A stretch of DNA of 64,000 nt, taken from NCBI RefSeq assembly GCF_014644295.1, contig NZ_BMKK01000001.1, positions 682,001 to 746,000 of the forward strand. The letters run 5' to 3'. The position numbers and the translations under genes are program-made. A model generated the notes under the pieces. It was not told the DNA's origin. It ran no database searches and worked only from the letters and a program-made list of their open reading frames with translations. Below are positions 33,619 to 56,902 of the stretch, piece by piece; positions within the stretch are counted from its first letter, which is position 1, and the number at the start of each line of letters is the position of its first letter. Source of the stretch: Emticicia aquatilis. GTDB lineage: Bacteria; Bacteroidota; Bacteroidia; Cytophagales; Spirosomataceae.

Positions 33619-33812
33619 ATTTTGACGAAGTAATCCTTGCTATCCAAAAATCTACAATTACTCTTGAGCAAATTCCTGAAGCTAAAAACATGCTTGAAAA
33701 TGCTATTGAAGAGTGTGCCGACATTGTAAAAGACCCCGAAACCGAACTATATAGTCGCCGTGAGTTCCAAGAAAAATTAACCCTTTACAGAAAACTCCTT
33801 AACCGTTTATAA
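33615..33812 (+). CDS. Hypothetical early phage protein
   Basis: 65 residues, acidic and helical (MNFDEVILAIQKSTITLEQ). The last base of its stop is the first base of the primase start, so the pair is tightly coupled. It may be a small accessory of the primase; this is guesswork from position. Confidence 0.5.
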   Translation: MNFDEVILAIQKSTITLEQIPEAKNMLENAIEECADIVKDPETELYSRREFQEKLTLYRKLLNRL

Positions 33813-36800
33813 TGGAATACGAAATAACGCTGGATGACATCCTAAAACAAGATGGTGGACAGCAATACTTAGAATCAGTTTACCCCGACATTTACAAATG
33901 TTTTCAGAATCCAAATCACAAAATTTCTATTCGTGATGATGATTCGACGGCTTCGGCTGGAGTATTCAAGCATAAAGAAAAAGGTTGGTGGATGCTAAAA
34001 GACTTTGGCGGTGGTGGCGATAACAAGGCAAAAACAGCTCTACAAGTTTGTATGGATGTAAATGGCTTGAGTTATGGAGCTGCTTTTAAGGTCCTTGCTG
34101 AGTTTTATGGTATTTCCATCAAATACACTCAGGCATCGGCCACTTATAACCATCGTCCAGCTCGCTCTGACGAACAACCGAAACAGGTTACAATTACCAA
34201 GTATAAAGAATTTACCAAAGCGGAGATTCTTACTATACTTTCTCCGAAAGCATGGGAAGGTATTGAATTTGGTGGAATGAATAACAAAGACGATGATAAG
34301 ATTCGTTTTGACCTTGCCATGCAACTGTTCAAATATTACCATATAAAGTCGGTAGAAACCTATGAGCAAGTGAGCGAAGACGGAAAAAAGGTAAATATCT
34401 TTTCATCAAATCCCGAATTTCCAATTTTTGCTTTTGACGAAGGAGATTTCCAAAAAATCTATAAACCGAAGGATGAAAAGCAGTATCGCTTCTTATATGC
34501 AGGTAAAAAGCCCGAAAATTTCATTCATGGTCTTGCTCAACACAAGCAGTTTATATCGGGTAATGTCAAGCAGAATGAAGAAGCTTATAATGCTGCTGTC
34601 GAAAGTGGGCAAAAGGTTGTAAAAGATAAACTTGAAGAAAAATTCAGAGAAATTATCTTATGCTCAGGAGGCTCCGACGCCCTTAATGTTGCGGCTCTTG
34701 GCTACAAAGTCATTTGGCTTAACTCCGAAACAGCTAAAATTGATAAAGAGCAATTCAAATCTATCAATAGTATTTGTACGAATTTCTATAATTTACCTGA
34801 TATCGATATGACAGGTAAAGAGTCGGCAAAAAGCCTGGCATTTTGCTACTTAGATATTCGCACTATTTGGCTCCCTGCAACCCTCGCACAACAAACAGAT
34901 ATAAGAGGAAATGCCTGTAAAGATGTCAGAGATTTCCTTAAAAATAATGATAAAAAAGCCTTCAAAAAATTAGTTGAAACGGCCCTACCTTTTAAATTTT
35001 GGGACGAACAACCAGCCTACGATAAAGAAGGAAACCGAAAAATAAAGTTCGGTCGCCCACAGATGACATACGAGCTAAATCACGTCTGTACCTACAACTT
35101 TTTGCAGATGAATGGCTTTTATCGCTATCCTACCGACAAAACAAAAGAAGGCTATGTATTCATTAAAATCGACGGTAATAAGGTTACGAAAGTAGATTCA
35201 AACATCATCAAAAATTTTATACACAACTTCTTAAAAGAAAGGCAACTGCCAGAAGATTTAAGAAATATGATGTATCGAAGCCCGCAATTATCCGAAACTT
35301 CACTTTCAAACTTAGAAGATTTTGAGCCGAATTTTAAGCACTTCGGCCGTGATTTTCAGTATATATTTTTCGATAATAAAATTTGGAAAGTTACAGGCGA
35401 CGCCATCGAGGTAGTAAAGACTCCAGATGTTTACGTTTGGGATTTCAAAATTATCAAAATCGAAACGACTGATAAAAATAATCGCTTAGTGGTGCATAAG
35501 CCTAAGATTCTTGAAGATATGTTCAAAATATCGGGCAATATGAAAGAAGGTTGGGATATTGAAATGCAAGAGACGAATAGCGATTTTGTCAAGTTTCTTA
35601 CAAATACCTGTCGAATACATTGGAGAACGGAACTGGAGGAACGCATGAACTTTTGGCAGCTCACCGAAAAGCAACGTAACGAATACAAAGTTACACATGA
35701 CCTTTCGGAAGAGCAGGTAAAGAAATTAATGAGCTTCCAGAGTAAAGAAAAACAAGACAAGTATAACGAACAATACCAATTTCGATTAGATGGCTCACTT
35801 CTTACAGCCGAAGAAATCAAAGAACAAAAACTTGCTTTCATCAATCGAATTTTTTCAATAGGCTATATGCTGCATCGATATAAGGACTTAGCAAAACCTT
35901 GGGCTTTGTTCCTGATGGATTATCGAATTTCGGAGGAAGGAGCATCGAATGGTCGTGCAGGTAAAGGTATTTTAGCAAAAGCTTTTTACAAGATGCTATG
36001 GCACACCTGGAAAGATGGTCGAAAACAAGATATGTTTGACTACGAACATATTTGGGAGCCGATAGAAAAATGGGTAACAGACCTTATTCATATCGAAGAT
36101 TGGGGCGAGTTTCAGCCATTCCCACGCCTTTACGGTCCTTTAACGTCTTCGTTGATTGCTAACCCCAAAGGCAAAACAATGATAACCTACAAGTATGAAG
36201 AATATGGCAAATTTTTGATTGATACGAACTTCTCGGACCGATATATGGACGGTAGCTCTAAGGGTAGAAAGTTGCATGGCGTATTCTCAGATTATTACCA
36301 TGAAGACCTTGAGTATTATGGCGAAGTGAGAACACCACTAACCGAACTCAAGAGAAGAATCTTTGATGATTGGGACGGTGAGCAATGGAACCTATTCTAC
36401 AACTTCATGGCCCAGTGCCTAAAATTTTATTTGAGTGTTGCCCAGAGCGACGTGAAGATAGACCCTCCTTTCTCAAACATTCAGAAACGTAATAGCTTGG
36501 CTCTGATGGGCGAAAACTTTAGGCAATGGGCTGATAACTACTTTGCAGGAAAACTTAACGATTTAGTAGGAAGAACCGATGCTTATGAAGATTGTAGAAA
36601 TGCCATAAATGCCAAACAGTTTACACCACAAGGGTTTTGGAAAAAGATTCAAGCCTGGGCAGAGTTCAACGAGTACAAATTTAACCCTGAGCATGTAAGT
36701 GGATGGAAGAAAGAGTCGGAGCATGCCAAGTATGGAACCATCAAAAAAATGATTCCTAACCCGAATCAGGAAGGGAAATATACTCAGAAAGAATTTATAT

Positions 36801-36844
36801 GGATTGAAGGAAAAGAAATTGATGAATCAGATATACCAGTTTAA
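33812..36844 (+). CDS. Large phage primase/helicase-like replication protein
   Basis: A 1010-residue protein and the only large early gene. The N-terminus (about 15-105) resembles the CHC2/primase N-terminal region without zinc cysteines: DDDSTASAGVFKHKEKGWW, KDFGGGG. A TOPRIM-like segment follows (about 279-400), with EIILCSGGSDALNVAALG resembling the TOPRIM Glu motif. The C-terminal half holds a P-loop-like GRAGKG at 714-719 followed by IEDWGEFQ (possible Walker B), as in SF3/D5-type helicases. It probably primes and unwinds phage DNA. The helicase half is diverged and the P-loop ends GKG rather than GKS/T, so ATPase activity is less certain. Confidence 0.7.
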   Translation: MEYEITLDDILKQDGGQQYLESVYPDIYKCFQNPNHKISIRDDDSTASAGVFKHKEKGWWMLKDFGGGGDNKAKTALQVCMDVNGLSYGAAFKVLAEFYGISIKYTQASATYNHRPARSDEQPKQVTITKYKEFTKAEILTILSPKAWEGIEFGGMNNKDDDKIRFDLAMQLFKYYHIKSVETYEQVSEDGKKVNIFSSNPEFPIFAFDEGDFQKIYKPKDEKQYRFLYAGKKPENFIHGLAQHKQFISGNVKQNEEAYNAAVESGQKVVKDKLEEKFREIILCSGGSDALNVAALGYKVIWLNSETAKIDKEQFKSINSICTNFYNLPDIDMTGKESAKSLAFCYLDIRTIWLPATLAQQTDIRGNACKDVRDFLKNNDKKAFKKLVETALPFKFWDEQPAYDKEGNRKIKFGRPQMTYELNHVCTYNFLQMNGFYRYPTDKTKEGYVFIKIDGNKVTKVDSNIIKNFIHNFLKERQLPEDLRNMMYRSPQLSETSLSNLEDFEPNFKHFGRDFQYIFFDNKIWKVTGDAIEVVKTPDVYVWDFKIIKIETTDKNNRLVVHKPKILEDMFKISGNMKEGWDIEMQETNSDFVKFLTNTCRIHWRTELEERMNFWQLTEKQRNEYKVTHDLSEEQVKKLMSFQSKEKQDKYNEQYQFRLDGSLLTAEEIKEQKLAFINRIFSIGYMLHRYKDLAKPWALFLMDYRISEEGASNGRAGKGILAKAFYKMLWHTWKDGRKQDMFDYEHIWEPIEKWVTDLIHIEDWGEFQPFPRLYGPLTSSLIANPKGKTMITYKYEEYGKFLIDTNFSDRYMDGSSKGRKLHGVFSDYYHEDLEYYGEVRTPLTELKRRIFDDWDGEQWNLFYNFMAQCLKFYLSVAQSDVKIDPPFSNIQKRNSLALMGENFRQWADNYFAGKLNDLVGRTDAYEDCRNAINAKQFTPQGFWKKIQAWAEFNEYKFNPEHVSGWKKESEHAKYGTIKKMIPNPNQEGKYTQKEFIWIEGKEIDESDIPV

Positions 36845-37388: not shown

Positions 37389-37604
37389 ATGTTACAGACA
37401 ACATTATCCCCTACTATTGTCCGTCAGATTTCTGATATAGTAAATAGCCCTGAGTTTGGCAAAGACCAAATGGAGGCATACGGTGGCAACAAAGCAGCCA
37501 TTCGCCGAACACGTGTGCAGCTCTCTAAGATTGCAAAGCTCTGTAAGGAAGGCAGAGAAGAATTAACAACAGTCAAGAAGAATTTAGATGTTACTAAGGA
37601 GTGA
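37389..37604 (+). CDS. Histone H1-like (Hc1-type) phage protein
   Basis: 71 residues. The core GGNKAAIRRTRVQLSKIAKL and the following KEGREELTTVKKN parallel the host Hc1 at 7173-7355 (GNNAAGTRVRAGMATLAKW, RAEVQAKKN). It has a longer N-terminus and lacks the Lys-rich tail. It probably binds DNA; it could mimic or compete with the host protein, or compact phage DNA. It closes the early operon. Confidence 0.68.
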   Translation: MLQTTLSPTIVRQISDIVNSPEFGKDQMEAYGGNKAAIRRTRVQLSKIAKLCKEGREELTTVKKNLDVTKE

Positions 37605-37752: not shown

Positions 37753-37989
37753 ATGGAAAATGAGCGAAATTTAATTACTCCACGCCAGGCGTTGAAAAAT
37801 GAGTGCGATAAATTATTAGCTTCAATAGATAAGTTTATGACTAAAGCTCAGGCAATGGGATACAGGGTTGATATTGATGCAAGATTATACCTTGACCATA
37901 AGTCAATTAGAGCAGAATTATATAAGCCATTGGTTGAAATTGAAGGAATTAAATGGTTTGATAAAAAGGAGGTGAGCGATGGCGAATAG
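37753..37989 (+). CDS. Hypothetical phage protein, first of the SD-coupled cluster
   Basis: 78 residues, helical (LITPRQALKNECDKLLASIDKFMTKAQ fragment pattern). Its 3-prime end encodes the Shine-Dalgarno site of the next gene, giving the C-terminal residues KKEVSDGE. No motif recognised. It has no Shine-Dalgarno of its own. Confidence 0.6.
   Translation: MENERNLITPRQALKNECDKLLASIDKFMTKAQAMGYRVDIDARLYLDHKSIRAELYKPLVEIEGIKWFDKKEVSDGE
37966..37974 (+). promoter_or_regulatory. Perfect Shine-Dalgarno site
   Basis: AAGGAGGTG; AGGAGG ends six bases before ATG 37979. Nine-base complement to the 16S rRNA 3-prime end. Confidence 0.85.
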
Positions 37990-38293
37990 ATATTTTTTTA
38001 AAATCACGAACGAGAACAAAACGAATAATAAGCTTGAAGAAGCCGTTTTGGAGTTTATTAAAGAAAATGATAGGCAGATTGTTCACCAAACTTGGGTTGA
38101 TAAGTTCAAAGATGCTCTTGATGAAGTTATAGACCTCATTTCTTCAAAATACCCAAGATGCAAACCTTCTTGTGTTGACTTTAAATGGTCATCGTCGATA
38201 AAAGATGATGAATTGCTTTACATCGGCGATTTTCTAACTGTTAGGTTCTATTTAATTGCGGGGTCAAGAAAGGAGGTGGGTGATGAAGAGTAG
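37979..38293 (+). CDS. Hypothetical phage protein
   Basis: 104 residues; mixed charged, with YPRCKPSCVDFKW in the middle and a hydrophobic strand near the end (LTVRFYLIAG). It overlaps the gene before it by 11 bases and the ASCH gene after it by 11 bases. The C-terminus GSRKEVGDEE is coded by the next Shine-Dalgarno site. No family recognised. Confidence 0.6.
   Translation: MANRYFFKITNENKTNNKLEEAVLEFIKENDRQIVHQTWVDKFKDALDEVIDLISSKYPRCKPSCVDFKWSSSIKDDELLYIGDFLTVRFYLIAGSRKEVGDEE
38270..38278 (+). promoter_or_regulatory. Perfect Shine-Dalgarno site, fixes the ASCH start
   Basis: AAGGAGGTG; AGGAGG ends six bases before ATG 38283, which decides that start over the earlier in-frame ATG at 38256. 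Confidence 0.85.
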
Positions 38294-38972
38294 CCCTATT
38301 TTATTTAAGACCGAAATGGTTAAAGCCATTTTAGGGGGTACGAAGACAATGACGAGACGAGTTGTAAAATTACCTTCATGGAGTACAATGGATTTTAATG
38401 ATTTGAACATTTCAGAAGAATACATTGCTGTAATTGCTCATGAAACAGGTTGTGAAGTAGAATTAGAAAGTCCTTATGGTAAAGTTGGTGATGAGCTGTG
38501 GGTTAGAGAAACCTTTTTCAAAAACGGAAATGAATATATCTTTCTTGCCGATGGAACTTGTTGCGAGCAATTTGAGCAATGTGAGTGTAGTGAAGTTGGT
38601 AAACCAAAATGGAAACCATCAATTTTTATGCCTCGTGAAGCTTCACGAATAACGCTTGAGATAACTAATATTAAAGTTGAGAAACTGCAAGATATTTCTG
38701 AACAAGATGCGAAAAATGAAGGTATTGAAACTAAGACTTATGGAGACCATCCACATTTTTGTACTATTGATTATTTAGGTGCTCAAATTTACAGCAAATC
38801 TAAGCATAAGCATATCAGAGGCTTTAAGCCCGGATTTTGTGCTGATACTGGAAGACAATTCAGAGATTCTTTCAGAACGCTATGGAGTTCAATAAATGGC
38901 ACTTCCTCTTGGGATAACAACCCCTATGTTTGGGTCGTCGAGTTCAAGAAAAAGGAGGTGTCCAGTGAGTAA
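38283..38972 (+). CDS. ASCH-related phage protein
   Basis: 229 residues. The N-terminus SSPILFKTEMVKAILGGTKTMTRRVVK (read as ILFKTEMVKAIL then TRRVV) and the later GDELWVRETF, PSIFMPREASRITLEI and VEKLQDISEQDAKNEGI segments are the recognisable pattern of ASCH-superfamily phage proteins. The ASCH fold is related to PUA and binds RNA or modified nucleotides. The role in phage is unknown. Start chosen by the Shine-Dalgarno site; the C-terminus ends KKKEVSSE. Confidence 0.72.
   Translation: MKSSPILFKTEMVKAILGGTKTMTRRVVKLPSWSTMDFNDLNISEEYIAVIAHETGCEVELESPYGKVGDELWVRETFFKNGNEYIFLADGTCCEQFEQCECSEVGKPKWKPSIFMPREASRITLEITNIKVEKLQDISEQDAKNEGIETKTYGDHPHFCTIDYLGAQIYSKSKHKHIRGFKPGFCADTGRQFRDSFRTLWSSINGTSSWDNNPYVWVVEFKKKEVSSE
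38952..38960 (+). promoter_or_regulatory. Perfect Shine-Dalgarno site, fixes a GTG start
   Basis: AAGGAGGTG; AGGAGG ends six bases before GTG 38965. Confidence 0.82.
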
Positions 38973-39153
38973 ATTTGATGATTTTATGGCCATCTACCAA
39001 GACATTGATTTGATAGATATCCAAAGCTCTATTTTTGAGGTATTGAGCGAAATGGGAATCCCTGCTGATAGCGATGATACTGATGGCATCGTAACTGGTT
39101 TGTTTGCTCGTGGTTATGTAGTGGTGCCAGTAAAGGAGGTGCGTAATGGCTGA
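38965..39153 (+). CDS. Small acidic phage protein
   Basis: 62 residues from a GTG start (MSKFDDFMAIYQDIDLID), overlapping the ASCH gene by eight bases. Acidic (SDDTDG), helical, ends PVKEVRNG where the next Shine-Dalgarno is encoded. No motif recognised; an acidic small protein could be a DNA mimic, but nothing further supports that. Confidence 0.58.
   Translation: MSKFDDFMAIYQDIDLIDIQSSIFEVLSEMGIPADSDDTDGIVTGLFARGYVVVPVKEVRNG
39133..39141 (+). promoter_or_regulatory. Perfect Shine-Dalgarno site
   Basis: AAGGAGGTG; AGGAGG ends six bases before ATG 39146. Confidence 0.85.
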
Positions 39154-39478
39154 AATGACAATTTACACACGTACTACTTTAATTGAGGCCATCGAGGCAG
39201 CTCTCAAAAGTAGAAAGCCCGAAGATATTTATGCGATACAACATTCACTTAAAATCAAGTGCAATCAGCACCAAATGTCTTGGCTCACCTTTTTAGTTGA
39301 TGAAGCTCTGCCAGCCATCAACATGAATGCAAAACAACCGCTTACTTTTTTCGTAGAATCAGCATCACTTTCTTGTCCTTATTGTGATGGTCGAGAATTT
39401 AAAAATATAATGGGCTTGAAAGCTCACCTTGGGAAGAAGCACCGTGACAAGAAAGCGAGCTGGAGGATAAAGACATAA
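39146..39478 (+). CDS. Phage protein with C2H2-type zinc finger
   Basis: 110 residues. Helical N-terminal two-thirds; the C-terminus has CPYCDGREFKNIMGLKAHLG then KKH, a C-x2-C-x12-H-x4-H zinc finger (about 77-100). It probably binds DNA or RNA and is a candidate regulator of the late genes because it is the last gene before the late region. It overlaps the preceding gene by eight bases and is followed by a terminator. Confidence 0.65.
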   Translation: MAEMTIYTRTTLIEAIEAALKSRKPEDIYAIQHSLKIKCNQHQMSWLTFLVDEALPAINMNAKQPLTFFVESASLSCPYCDGREFKNIMGLKAHLGKKHRDKKASWRIKT

Positions 39479-43588: not shown

Positions 43589-44440
43589 ATGAATTTTACT
43601 GCCGAACTTATCACCCGTACATGGGCATTAGAACCCCAATTTCACAACCGTATTGCTATGGTTGTGTTAGCTGGTCGCTTAGACCATGCTCTGAGTGTTA
43701 AAGCAAGAAAAGAGCCATACTTCGCTCGAATTTCAGCAGGCAGTTATTACTACGAAAACCGAATCACCAAAGTACCTACAAAAAGTGGTTTGGTTGCAAT
43801 TATCCCAATCATTGGTGTAATGAGCCGTTATGGCGACTTATGTAGTTGGGGTACAGAAGACATTGGCTCTTGGATTTTAGAGGCAAACGCCGATGACAAT
43901 GTATCGGCAATTGTTCTCGAAATCAATTCACCTGGGGGCAGTGTAGATGGTACTGAATTACTTGCAGCCATTGTTCGACAGTCTCAAAAACCTGTTGTTG
44001 CCTATATTACTGGGATGGCTGCCAGTGCTGCTTATTGGATTGCAAGCCAATGTAAAGAAATTGTCATGGAAGCTGCCATCAGTAGCGAAGTTGGCAGTAT
44101 TGGCGTGCTTGCTACACACATTGATGCCTCTCAATTCTACGAAAAAGAGGGTTACAAAATCACCATCATACGTTCGGAAGGCTCAGAAGACAAAAGCCTT
44201 TTTAACTCAGTCGAGCCTTTGACTGATGAGCTTTTAGTATCTGTAAGAGAAGAACTGAAACCCATTCGTAGCCAATTTATCAAGTCTGTTTCCGATGGTA
44301 GAAATATCCCTGAATCTGACAACAGCATCTTCACAGGCAAAATGTTCAATGGCAAAATTGCGACCACAAATGGAATGGCTGACCGCATTGGCTTCCTTGG
44401 CGATGCCGTGCGAAGAGCTGATTTATTAGCCCGTAAATAA
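43589..44440 (+). CDS. S49-type prohead protease
   Basis: 283 residues, SppA/S49 family, acting as the head maturation protease of many tailed phages. Seen: LEINSPGGSVDG (114-117 SPGG, oxyanion region), the nucleophile Ser146 in ITGMAASAAYW, and SSEVGSIGVLATHIDAS, where the family places the general-base Lys a few residues upstream (Lys156 in SQCKEIV is a candidate). It lies directly before the scaffold and capsid genes and should cleave them. The start codon lies five bases after the late promoter -7 element. Confidence 0.88.
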   Translation: MNFTAELITRTWALEPQFHNRIAMVVLAGRLDHALSVKARKEPYFARISAGSYYYENRITKVPTKSGLVAIIPIIGVMSRYGDLCSWGTEDIGSWILEANADDNVSAIVLEINSPGGSVDGTELLAAIVRQSQKPVVAYITGMAASAAYWIASQCKEIVMEAAISSEVGSIGVLATHIDASQFYEKEGYKITIIRSEGSEDKSLFNSVEPLTDELLVSVREELKPIRSQFIKSVSDGRNIPESDNSIFTGKMFNGKIATTNGMADRIGFLGDAVRRADLLARK

Positions 44441-49606: not shown

Positions 49607-49645
49607 TTTTGCCCTACTCATATAGAATACCACATTGCAGCTTTG
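49607..49645 (+). promoter_or_regulatory. Phage late promoter B
   Basis: AAGTTTTG with TTTTG at 49607-49611, CCTAC at the CCTGT position (49613), and CAGCTTTG (49638-49645) 26 bases after TTTTG. The most divergent of the five sites. The -7 element lies across the loop of the terminator at 49626. Confidence 0.5.
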
Positions 49646-49662
49646 CAATGTGGTATTTTTTT
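49626..49662 (+). terminator. Terminator after the kinase gene
   Basis: Perfect 14-bp hairpin AATACCACATTGCA / TGCAATGTGGTATT, loop GCTT, then T5. Confidence 0.92.
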
Positions 49663-49681
49663 AAATTTAAGTTTGCAAAAC

Positions 49682-50299
49682 ATGATTAATGAACTCTTCA
49701 TTACCGAAAAGGTAAAGGTTAGTGAGCTTGTCCCCAGCTCCAAAAATCCCCGAAAAATTAAGCAAGAAGAACGAAAGAAACTTTGGGAGCGTATTCAGAA
49801 ATATGGTATGATTTCTATACCTATTCGTGATGCCGATGGTACGCTATTAGGCGGAAAACAACGTTGTGAGTTGCTTGTGCAATATGGCCTTGGCGATTCT
49901 ATGATTGATGTCCGTACAGCTACTCGAAAGCTGACTGATGAAGAATTACGAGAAGTAATGGTTATCGAAAATACCCATGCTGGAGAGTGGGATTTGGAGA
50001 TACTAAAAAAAGAGTTTGATGATTTTTTAGACCTGTCAGATTATGGTTTCAATCTTGATGCCATCGACCAAGTGGCTAATGAAATTGCCGAAGCCCAAGA
50101 ACCTGAATACCCAATTGTTCCAAAGTTTTCGGAGAAATATAGTGCTGTTATCATCGTCATCGAAAATTCTATTGATGAAAATTTTGTTCGGTCTGTTTTA
50201 GGCTTAGAGGTAATGAAAGATTATAAAACCTCGAATGTTGGTGAAAGTTATGTTCTGAATGCAAAACAATTTACTGAAAGATGGAACAAACGCCTATAA
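49682..50299 (+). CDS. ParB/sulfiredoxin-fold phage protein
   Basis: ATG 49682 (MINELFITEKVKVSEL) is preferred over a TTG at 49643; 205 residues. The ParB N-terminal domain runs about 9-110: VSELVPSSKNPRKIKQEE, and GGKQRCELLVQYGL at the box II position, followed by NTHAGEWDLEIL. There is no HTH, so it is not a partition ParB. Phage relatives are nucleases or act in modified-base metabolism. It overlaps the glycosyltransferase gene by 19 bases. Confidence 0.8.
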   Translation: MINELFITEKVKVSELVPSSKNPRKIKQEERKKLWERIQKYGMISIPIRDADGTLLGGKQRCELLVQYGLGDSMIDVRTATRKLTDEELREVMVIENTHAGEWDLEILKKEFDDFLDLSDYGFNLDAIDQVANEIAEAQEPEYPIVPKFSEKYSAVIIVIENSIDENFVRSVLGLEVMKDYKTSNVGESYVLNAKQFTERWNKRL

Positions 50300-51024
50300 A
50301 AGTCTTGATAGCAAGCCATAAACGAGCCGCTAAAATCACTACTCATAAGAAAGTATCGAATAGTATCATTTGTATTCCAGAGAGCCAATTAGGTGAATAC
50401 CGTGAGCATTGTGGCCATAACTACGAAATTGTTACGCATCCTGATTCTGTTGTGGGTCTTAGTTGGAAACGCCAGTGGATGATGGAATATTTCGGCGATG
50501 CTTTTCACTTGGACGATGATTTGATGTTTATGAAGCGTATTTATACTGAGCCTAACGAACCTGATAAATTGGCACCCGATGAAATATTTGAGGTCATTCA
50601 ATCCACAGCACGTGCTGCTCGTCAAAGTGGGGCCTATATTTTCGGGTTCAATACAAGCGGAAAACCATTTACATACAGCTCGCTCGCTCCCGTCCAAATA
50701 TCAGGGTACATAAACACTTGTGCTTTTGGGCTATTTGTTGGCTCAAAACTTTTCTTTCGTCCTGAACAGCGATACCAAGAAGACTATTGGCTTTCGGGCT
50801 TAAATGCTTATCATAACCGAAAAATTTGGAGGGACAATCGTTTTTATTTTCACTTTGGCGAGACCTGGACCGGAGCTGGTGGACTGGCAGAATTTAGAAA
50901 TTTGGAAACACTCGAAAAAACTTTGAAGGAATTACAGAAATTCTTCGGAGAAGATGTAATTTGCGTCAGAAAGATGGGAACAAAAAACCACCCGTATCAA
51001 ATGAACTTCAAAGTACCATTCTGA
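50281..51024 (+). CDS. Phage GT-A glycosyltransferase (GREB1/TAGT-like)
   Basis: 247 residues. IKVLIASHKRA opens the nucleotide-sugar fold, SWKRQWMMEYFGDAFHLDDDLMFM carries a DDD metal motif (about 78-80), and RPEQRYQEDYWLSGLNAYHN gives the later acidic motif, as in the TET/JBP-associated glycosyltransferases that Iyer and colleagues described as modifying DNA bases. It probably transfers a sugar, perhaps to phage DNA, with the ParB-like and kinase genes upstream. No TET/JBP hydroxylase is in the window, so the acceptor is unknown. Confidence 0.68.
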   Translation: MEQTPIKVLIASHKRAAKITTHKKVSNSIICIPESQLGEYREHCGHNYEIVTHPDSVVGLSWKRQWMMEYFGDAFHLDDDLMFMKRIYTEPNEPDKLAPDEIFEVIQSTARAARQSGAYIFGFNTSGKPFTYSSLAPVQISGYINTCAFGLFVGSKLFFRPEQRYQEDYWLSGLNAYHNRKIWRDNRFYFHFGETWTGAGGLAEFRNLETLEKTLKELQKFFGEDVICVRKMGTKNHPYQMNFKVPF

Positions 51025-54789: not shown

Positions 54790-55329
54790 ATGAGAATCAC
54801 AAAGCATAAGTCAGGTGTAATCAAACGGCTCCTAAAGATAGAAGAATCAGAGCTTGAACCTTACTTCAAATATTATCTTGGGGAAGTTGAATTTGAGGCC
54901 CTTCCAGAAGAACAACAAATCAAACTTGAGCGATTCAAAAAAGCATGGTCTTGGTACGTCATGGGGCGAACTAAGCAGATGATTATTGACGCACTCAAAA
55001 AAGACTACAATATCAAAGACCGTCAGGCAGAATATGACTTGGCAGCCTCTATTTTCCTACACGGTCGCAAAGAACCAGTCGACAAAGATGGTCGCCGAGT
55101 AGCATCGGCTGAATACTTCGACCTTTTATCTCAACTATCTACAAAAGAGAAGAAATACGATTGGGCCATTGCTGCTCGAAAAGAAGCCGATGACTGTTTA
55201 GGTATCCATGAAAAAGAAATGGATGGTTTGAACCCAGAAGATTTCTTGAAACCTACCAAAATCATTTTCAACACAAAAGTTGACATCCACAACTACGAAA
55301 AAGAAAAAACGATTGATTTAGATGAATGA
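54790..55329 (+). CDS. Terminase small subunit
   Basis: 179 residues just before and overlapping the large terminase by eight bases. A helical DNA-binding-like N-terminus, the segment GRTKQMIIDALKKDYNIKDRQAEYDL of an HTH-like unit (about 60-85), and a C-terminal PEDFLKPTKIIFNTKVDIHN, a typical oligomerisation/large-subunit contact region. It selects phage DNA for packaging. Called mainly by context. Confidence 0.72.
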   Translation: MRITKHKSGVIKRLLKIEESELEPYFKYYLGEVEFEALPEEQQIKLERFKKAWSWYVMGRTKQMIIDALKKDYNIKDRQAEYDLAASIFLHGRKEPVDKDGRRVASAEYFDLLSQLSTKEKKYDWAIAARKEADDCLGIHEKEMDGLNPEDFLKPTKIIFNTKVDIHNYEKEKTIDLDE

Positions 55330-56902
55330 GGCTCAAAAAATAATTTCTGTATCGCCCAATATCAAGCAATGGAAGTTTTTACGGTCTCGTGCAAAACGAA
55401 AGTCGTTTATTGGCGGTCGTGGCTCTGGAAAGTCAATCGCAATGGGATTTCAAGTAGGAATTTTATTTAATGATTTCCCAAGGGCAACTTGGGTGGTCGC
55501 TGGACTCACCTATGTACAACTTGACTCCGTTGTTATTCCTTCTATCCGTGATTCTCTCGAAATGATGGGCTATCATGAATATGACGCAAAAAATTGTCCA
55601 TATGGAGTTTACACACTTGGAACGCAACCCCCTAAAAACTGGATTCGACCTTACAAGGTCCCAGGAAAGAAGGCATACCAATATTGTATGACCTTCATTA
55701 ATGGTTTTACAATTCGTTTCGTTTCCCAAGACACTCAAAAATACCATCGTGGACTTTCAATTGATGGACTTTTAGTCGATGAATCGGCCACTATGTCTTT
55801 TGAATTTATTCAAACGGTTTTATTACCTGCATTTCGTGGCAATGAAAACAAGTTAGTGCCTTACAAAGACCATCCGCTCAGGTATGGATTTTTTGACTTT
55901 TCGTCAGCCTCTTGGACTCCAGAAGGGAACTGGATTTACGACACGGAAGAAAAATGGAAAGCGATGATTGATGAAAGGTTAAAAATGACACCTTCACAAT
56001 TAAAGGCAAATCCACCCAAATACCTATTTCTTGAATCGACATATCACGATAATCAAGAACATCTACCACATGACTATGGTGAGCGATTACAAGATTTACT
56101 GGACCCATGGAAGTTTGAAGTCGAAGTGTTAAACCACAGGGTACTGAAAATACCTAACGCCTATTATCATGCTTTTACCAGCTCTAAACACGGGTATAAG
56201 GATAGCTATGATTATAAAAGAGATGATAAGCAGAACCTTATTTGGACTTCAAATGACTACCATATAGACCGACCATTAGAAGTGTCTTTTGATTTTAACA
56301 GTGATATATGTTGGTTATTGGTGTGCCAAGAAACATCAAATGAGTTAAGGGTAATCAATAGTGAATTTGCCAAACCAGCCGTCAAAGATAACAGGGAAAA
56401 GAAACTATACATACAGCTCGCTGAAAAGGTCTGCGAGAAGTATGCTACACATACCAAAAAGGATATTTTCATTTATGGCGACCCTAATGGAAATAGCACT
56501 AATGCAGGTACTTCTAATAATAATAAGCCTTTTTTTGATGAAGTCAGCGAGGTATTTAGAAACGCTGGTTGGAAGGTATTTAGACGAGAGCTGTCGTCCT
56601 ACCCTGGTTTCAAAGATAAATATGTATTAGTCAATCTACTGTTTGAAGAGCGGTCAGAACGCACGCCTAAGATACGCATCAACGTCAACACTAATAAAGC
56701 TCTAATCATAGCCCTGCAAAACACTATGGTTAAGACTGATAAAAGCTTTAAGAAAGATAAGAGTAGCGAAGACAAAGCAAGGCTGAGAGAGTACGCCACT
56801 GATGGCACCGATGCTCTTGATTATATTCTTTATGCAAAATATAAAAATGTAATGCCGTCCACGGGTTGGTCAAGTACTGGAATCATCACTTTATCACGCT
56901 AA
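55322..56902 (+). CDS. Terminase large subunit
   Basis: 526 residues, the packaging motor. Walker A FIGGRGSGKSIA (residues 30-39) and Walker B GLLVDESA (149-156, Asp153-Glu154) form the ATPase. The C-terminal nuclease half has acidic positions in VSFDFNSD (about 323-330), IYGDPNG and ATDGTDALDYILYA. Length and order match HK97/T4-type large terminases. Confidence 0.92.
   Translation: MNEAQKIISVSPNIKQWKFLRSRAKRKSFIGGRGSGKSIAMGFQVGILFNDFPRATWVVAGLTYVQLDSVVIPSIRDSLEMMGYHEYDAKNCPYGVYTLGTQPPKNWIRPYKVPGKKAYQYCMTFINGFTIRFVSQDTQKYHRGLSIDGLLVDESATMSFEFIQTVLLPAFRGNENKLVPYKDHPLRYGFFDFSSASWTPEGNWIYDTEEKWKAMIDERLKMTPSQLKANPPKYLFLESTYHDNQEHLPHDYGERLQDLLDPWKFEVEVLNHRVLKIPNAYYHAFTSSKHGYKDSYDYKRDDKQNLIWTSNDYHIDRPLEVSFDFNSDICWLLVCQETSNELRVINSEFAKPAVKDNREKKLYIQLAEKVCEKYATHTKKDIFIYGDPNGNSTNAGTSNNNKPFFDEVSEVFRNAGWKVFRRELSSYPGFKDKYVLVNLLFEERSERTPKIRINVNTNKALIIALQNTMVKTDKSFKKDKSSEDKARLREYATDGTDALDYILYAKYKNVMPSTGWSSTGIITLSR

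Follow-up and report, generated by a model that had tools for sequence, protein, structure and literature searches.

Four consecutive small genes of a prophage or prophage-like element in Emticicia aquatilis start behind perfect, extended Shine-Dalgarno (SD) sites placed in short overlaps with the preceding gene, that is, a signal and a coupling geometry that are both known, met in a host group and a gene class from which they were thought to be absent. An earlier note, made from the letters of the window (the whole stretch of 64,000 nucleotides analysed here), had singled out these sites as unusual against a Bacteroidota background, and this judgement has been sustained: the host anti-SD is intact, the motif is rare in the genome, the predicted strength resembles that of rpsU, and the arrangement recurs in other phages. 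That the four sites act as translation-start signals is well supported by sequence. Moreover, they are rather probably working extended SDs of a phage accessory cassette, which would hold terminating ribosomes at the overlapping junctions for re-initiation, the coupling and the part played by the ribosomal protein bS21 being steps that we infer.

The prophage and its small-gene cassette

The source genome comprises 6.75 Mb in 36 contigs, and the element occupies about the second half of the window (Table 1). Its primase-like protein was used as the query for finding related phages. Gene 3 encodes the sole cassette protein from a widespread family, with homologs (<60% identity) in 153 phage records; the family spans phages of Pseudomonas, Vibrio and Escherichia, and the best matches are from a Klebsiella phage (37.6%) and a Flavobacterium phage (37.5%). 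In single-protein scans of viral contigs, gene 3 led to two loci and genes 2 and 5 to none. Just 5' of the cassette, at 37389-37604, lies the gene of a 71-aa protein resembling histone H1-like Hc1 (PF07432, E 5.8e-6, above the Pfam cut-off). At 49643-51024, a ParB-like/methyltransferase-like gene is followed by a match to phage glucosyl-HMC glucosyltransferase (phrog_842, E 1e-19), a gene pair from which hypermodification of the prophage DNA appears possible.

Table 1. Features of the prophage and of its small-gene cassette (window positions; pairing energies are predictions)
Feature	Position	Strand	Description	Start signal and overlap
Primase-like protein	33812..36844	+	1010 aa; name taken from its annotated Leef_1 phage homolog; without a Pfam match	SD absent
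Small-gene cassette	37753-39478	+	five genes	
Cassette gene 1	37753..37989	+	78 aa, no family	own SD absent (-0.5 kcal/mol); SD 1 within its 3' end
SD 1	37966..37974	+	AAGGAGGTG	AGGAGG + 6 nt + ATG 37979; -17.8 kcal/mol
Cassette gene 2	37979..38293	+	104 aa, no family	11-bp overlap with gene 1
SD 2	38270..38278	+	AAGGAGGTG	AGGAGG + 6 nt + ATG 38283; -18.5 kcal/mol
Cassette gene 3	38283..38972	+	229 aa, PHROG 874 (family of unknown function)	11-bp overlap with gene 2
SD 3	38952..38960	+	AAGGAGGTG	AGGAGG + 6 nt + GTG 38965; -18.7 kcal/mol
Cassette gene 4	38965..39153	+	62 aa, no family	GTG start; 8-bp overlap with gene 3
SD 4	39133..39141	+	AAGGAGGTG	AGGAGG + 6 nt + ATG 39146; -16.3 kcal/mol
Cassette gene 5	39146..39478	+	110 aa; C2H2/C2HE zinc-finger match, weak and short of the Pfam cut-offs	8-bp overlap with gene 4
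S49-type head maturation protease	43589-44440		same prophage	
Terminase (weak match)	55322-56902		same prophage	

Geometry and predicted strength of the four sites

The positions originally read from the sequence proved exact, as did the distance of six bases between the end of AGGAGG and the codons ATG, ATG, GTG and ATG. These four copies of AAGGAGGTG are all that the window holds on both strands, they share one strand and they occur only at starts; dinucleotide shuffles of the window contained 0.32 copies on average, and none of 100 reached four. Nothing as strong is found elsewhere in the window, as had been claimed, since the 41 other scored prophage genes are predicted to pair at -7.0 kcal/mol or weaker, against -16.3 to -18.7 kcal/mol for the four sites. 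The proposed check of the 16S anti-SD revealed an intact host tail, CACCTCCTT, fully complementary to the sites. Their predicted pairing with this tail is like that of rpsU (-18.6 kcal/mol) and passes the published threshold for exceptionally strong SDs (below -13 kcal/mol; PMC9976891), the strongest value among 135 sampled host genes being -11.5 kcal/mol.

Among the 16 overlapping junctions of the prophage, an SD is present at these four only, the other 12 being at -2.6 kcal/mol or weaker. The four SD starts have G, G, C and G at -3 and T at -6, while among the 34 SD-less prophage starts 56% have A at -3 and 47% have it at -6. Spacers and first codons differ among all four sites, and folding of the mRNA gave no structure common to them, with mean unpaired probabilities of the SD of 0.66, 0.30, 0.23 and 0.34.

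The earlier note had further stated that each site lies in the 3' end of the preceding gene and in its frame, so that the upstream proteins end in KEV plus 4-5 residues. The placement and the in-frame reading of AAG GAG GTG as KEV stand, and the length of the tail has to be corrected to 3-4 residues: the ends are KEV followed by SDGE, GDEE, SSE and RNG (4, 4, 3 and 3 residues), at overlaps of 11, 11, 8 and 8 bp. This tail is not an independent feature, because it results from a spacing of 6 combined with the 8- or 11-bp overlap class. A conserved C-terminal KEV peptide was also considered and was rejected, since the site is read in a different frame in runs whose genes overlap by 4 bp.

Rarity of the signal in the host and its relatives

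The suspicion that AAGGAGGTG might be frequent before host starts, making the cluster ordinary, was not borne out: 27 copies occur genome-wide, an under-representation with respect to the reversed control (73), and three of them are start-linked in the host. In all, seven of the 27 lie 5-9 nt 5' of a plausible start, namely the four described here and those of rpsU, a 69-aa ORF and an RNA-repair kinase gene; two others, with a start 12 nt away (L018) or an in-frame internal ATG 7 nt away (L013), were left out of this count. Another of the 27 is the 16S 3' end itself, seen in complement.

The RNA-repair pair (contig C22, L069:1717-3553, + strand) consists of an RNA ligase gene (PF09414) overlapped by an AAA_33/HD kinase-like gene, whose perfect SD (predicted -18.0 kcal/mol) lies within the end of the ligase gene, and it carries a start signal otherwise absent from host genes. 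The 69-aa ORF (contig C1, L068:1392-2007, - strand), without a family match, has a perfect SD (predicted -18.3 kcal/mol) and stands directly 5' of a PIN-domain gene in a toxin-antitoxin-like layout.

In the host family, 134 of 222 genomes contain at least one single site, and control motifs look similar, so that by eye single sites are not above background. In the Bacteroidales, the order of the host of locus L187 (see below), at least one RAAGGAGGTGNNNNATGA is found in 114 of 393 genomes, and SDs before rpsR and other ribosomal genes have been reported for this order (PMC9976891). Since single perfect sites are not rare there, rarity is clearest in the window's genome, and it is the run of sites that is the unusual thing.

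Recurrence of the arrangement in Bacteroidota phages

A first scan of 58 relatives for AAGGAGGTGNNNNRTG gave nine same-strand pairs at most 1.5 kb apart (six in the window's own genome, chosen for its pairs, two in G025 and one in G038), where the expectation, computed from manually entered counts for the 13 genomes that had two or more matches on a strand, was about 0.03. The cluster regions hold homologs of the prophage genes, the primase in G025 and the S49 protease in G038, and the region around two isolated sites in G021 is homologous to the prophage structural genes. The primase is present in 27 of 222 genomes of the host family, and a search of 15 genomes gave tight clusters in G187, G198 and G239, all start-linked.

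A profile of 16 primases led to 46 loci in bacterial genomes and to 125 relatives in viral contigs, 80 of which were retained, giving a set of 126 loci and 2.18 Mb in which some prophages are present in both collections; the duplicates L196 and L197 were dropped from spacing and junction counts and the others were kept. In these surveys, ORFs are simple longest-ORF calls, and pairing in relatives was computed with a Flavobacterium johnsoniae-like 16S tail; a 16S match was returned for 3 of 16 run-host genomes. Of the start-linked AAGGAGG copies, 93 lie on the primase strand and 5 on the opposite one. Five control motifs of the same composition gave 4, 12, 12, 28 and 29 start-linked copies on the primase strand, the top two sharing SD-like substrings, and counts of up to 29 count against the explanation that we favour.

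Six further sources not from the primase scans (the window, L063, L066, L102, L131 and L132), most of them taken for having sites, brought the total to 130. In these, 57 of 103 sites have a spacing of 6, and 38 of the 43 perfect sites at this spacing overlap the upstream gene by 4, 8 or 11 bp. Runs, i.e. at least two sites within 1.5 kb, some of them including weaker matches than AAGGAGGTG, are found in 19 of the 130 sources and in 15 of 124 primase-found loci; most of the 126 primase loci are without a run. Runs are seen in Cytophagales, in a Bacteroidia metagenome-assembled genome (MAG) and in a Bacteroides phage. The largest counts are 11 sites in L187, from the Bacteroidia MAG, and 9 in L159 (Telluribacter humicola). 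In BT-TP2, the Bacteroides phage, which has been cultured and infects Bacteroides thetaiotaomicron, the run covers gp20-gp22; its sites are an AAAGGAG, a AAAGGAGGTA and a AAAGGAGGTG, all three at overlaps of 4 bp. On the L187 contig (G247:C4, 62.7 kb), the 17.9 kb analysed contain the 11 start-linked SDs, and the contig carries the primase homolog; its genome has 15 copies of RAAGGAGGTGNNNNATGA, all forward, and the ten places among the matches listed are all on this contig.

At overlapping junctions, strong SDs (-14 kcal/mol or below) are present in 40 of 92 cases in 12 run loci, a rate biased by the choice of these loci for their SDs, and in 18 of 443 cases in the other 112 loci, where 49 more lie at -8 to -14. 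None of the 114 junctions on opposite strands is strong, although 6 of them reach -8 to -14, and none of the 12 in 160 kb of host DNA is. A chance origin of the runs is rejected by the shuffles, the AAGGAGGTGNNNNRTG pairs, the primase-strand bias and this comparison of strands. Overlap by itself does not require an SD; in fact, 12 of the 16 prophage overlaps are without an SD and 425 of 443 elsewhere without a strong one, so host coupling can do without it.

In the Flavobacteriales, RAATGAGATGNNNNATG, the complement of an altered anti-SD whose core is given in PMC9976891, occurs in 56 of 395 genomes, unsorted by anti-SD type, and in none of them in a run. The normal pattern occurs in 49 of the 395 with no verified run, the sole apparent cluster (G569) being without a start-linked ORF.

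A shared signal before unrelated genes

The 54 cassette proteins compared, the SD-less gene 1 included, contain one clear homologous pair and one 36-residue match. The pair comes from two elements of one genome, with 68% protein identity; the SD is retained, the spacer has diverged and the upstream genes align poorly. When 57 proteins of the run loci were searched against PHROGs and Pfam, matches to 28 families of the former and 6 of the latter came up, each with one member among the matches listed, and no common function emerged.

The host bS21 and its anti-SD pocket

In Bacteroidota ribosomes the anti-SD is hidden in a pocket formed by bS21, bS18 and bS6 (McNutt et al. 2023, PMC9976891). According to the same work, mRNA binding is the step that slows wild-type F. 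johnsoniae ribosomes on rpsU mRNA, and binding the mRNA beforehand makes them about 100-fold faster; truncation of bS21 speeds up initiation on this mRNA about 10-fold, and ribosomes lacking bS21 read its extended SD better; and in bS21 mutants the output of strong-SD reporters, but not that of SD-less ones, goes up about 2-4-fold (PMC9976891). Its discussion also speculates on phages and bS21 (PMC9976891).

The bS21 of our host has the anti-SD-binding Tyr54, as have all 15 sequences from 14 relatives. An extended SD precedes rpsU in 8 of these 14 relatives (9 of 15 with the window's genome; L276-L290), and the six without it, Telluribacter humicola and Runella defluvii among them, keep Tyr54 as well. 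Maribacter flavus (G253, L290) has a second, divergent and SD-less bS21 gene beside a first one with an SD. A phage bS21 was absent, the sole bS21 match in the genome being the host rpsU, and the L187 MAG genome gave no bS21 match. Among the ten run-carrying genomes with a bS21 match, rpsU is without an SD in five, which argues against a strict tie of the runs to rpsU autoregulation.

Discussion

The re-initiation proposed above can be laid out in steps. When a ribosome terminates on gene n, its P site would lie 2 or 5 nt beyond the first base of the start codon of gene n+1, and the SD would therefore be at or near its 16S tail. Pairing with the SD may pull this tail out of the bS21/bS18/bS6 pocket, and the paired SD would anchor the 30S subunit for re-initiation on gene n+1. 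As the mRNA is already threaded at the junction, its loading, the slow step for Bacteroidota ribosomes on SD mRNAs, would be bypassed. Output should rise further on ribosomes without bS21, where the anti-SD is exposed, and the remaining phage genes would use the SD-less mode of the host. Such a scheme explains both the way in which the genes overlap and the absence of an SD from the first of them. That terminating ribosomes are normally replete in bS21, with the anti-SD hidden, would speak against it, and the small number of SD-bearing gene 3 homologs (pairing below -10 kcal/mol in 2 of 16) and the run-less majority of related phages count against it.

The main rival to re-initiation is a regulon of bS21-deficient ribosomes, in which the SDs would recruit de novo a small pool of ribosomes lacking bS21, coupling would be incidental, and the cassette would be switched on by a shortage of bS21, e.g. 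in stress, induction or phage takeover. Both predict more output when bS21 is scarce. The predicted strength equals that of the rpsU signal, which bS21-lacking ribosomes read better, and the rise of strong-SD but not SD-less reporters in bS21 mutants (PMC9976891), together with the conservation of Tyr54 in the host and in its 14 relatives, also agrees with recruitment of this kind. Nevertheless, we judge it unlikely, as it leaves the 38 of 43 perfect sites in overlapping junctions unexplained, half of the run-carrying genomes with a bS21 match have an SD-less rpsU, and the phage encodes no bS21.

Strong SDs are the norm in many other phyla, and the cassettes might have been imported from phages of SD-using hosts, the SDs being idle leftovers. 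This would fit the patchy run genes, mostly without homologs in related Bacteroidota phages, the spread and best matches of the gene 3 family, and the AAGGAGG found before genes near two gene 3 relatives without an assigned host (L030 and L031). Import appears distinctly improbable to us, however, since the cassette has the GC content of the host part of the window (37.4% and 37.6%), the adjoining phage genes are SD-less with A-rich starts, one spacing is common to the runs of Cytophagales, of the Bacteroidia MAG and of the Bacteroides phage, and both members of some homologous pairs of about 40% protein identity have strong SDs (L235/L264 and L166/L102). It is very improbable indeed that the SD-start segment is mainly a short homology where phages swap or add small genes, in spite of the unrelated gene content of different loci and of the overlap class often being uniform within one. 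In 41 sites of 11 loci, likeness is higher within than between loci for the 4-nt spacer (0.50 against 0.35) and for codons 2-3 (0.46 against 0.33), values reached by none of 1000 label permutations, so that in some phages junctions have probably also been copied locally. The 5' flank has no clear within-locus likeness (reached by 108 and 110 of 1000 permutations), however, the four spacers and first codons of the window are all different, and recombination alone does not require that start spacing and the exact 16S complement be kept.

With regard to known systems, the cassette resembles the extended SD of Bacteroidota rpsU (PMC9976891) in predicted strength, full match to the 16S tail, intact anti-SD and a Tyr54 bS21. 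It differs in that its SDs serve a row of four phage genes, where rpsU is a single ribosomal gene, in that they lie at overlapping junctions inside the cassette and not in a leader of their own, and in a spacing of 6 instead of 9; moreover, it has no feedback loop, because no bS21 is encoded in it. With SD-assisted termination-reinitiation pairs (Huber et al. 2019, PMC6728339) it shares an SD placed within the end of the preceding gene and a start within a short overlap. In that survey, Bacteroidetes have no apparent SD use for reinitiation at overlapping pairs (about 10% or below; PMC6728339), whereas here full-strength SDs stand in runs, confined to one phage module. SD control in Flavobacteriales has been suggested to be limited to rpsU (McNutt et al., PMC9976891). 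Phage-encoded bS21 has been described in Bacteroidetes phages (PMC9723584). The primase-like protein is shared with Polaribacter phage Leef_1, in which the 30.5-kb stretch examined shows no more than a weak AGGAG, ahead of a single early gene, and with BT-TP2, which has an SD run as well. Flavobacterium phage laban6-1 shares gene 3 and the S49 protease, and its 13.3-kb stretch examined has no start-linked AAGGAGG. A search of the open-access literature by title and opening of the abstract, with subscription papers and preprints outside its scope, found no report of SD runs in Bacteroidota phages, and the available sections of PMC10783764, PMC6847099 and PMC12548453 do not mention them.

In this context, the phage runs are a visible exception to the published view that Bacteroidota hardly use SDs, and they offer ready test cases, a cultured Bacteroides phage among them, for the retention of the anti-SD and for the exploitation of ribosome heterogeneity by phages. 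They also provide a start-codon signal for annotating small phage genes without known families. Somewhat more speculatively than the re-initiation itself, and with real doubt, it may be proposed that Bacteroidota phages keep a separate translation channel, in which most of the reading of accessory operons falls to ribosomes whose anti-SD is exposed, either because they are deficient in bS21 or because they have just terminated; such reading would make the phage accessory regulon depend on ribosome composition and not on transcription alone. If this is true, the conserved yet hidden anti-SD of Bacteroidota would gain a use beyond ribosomal-protein genes.
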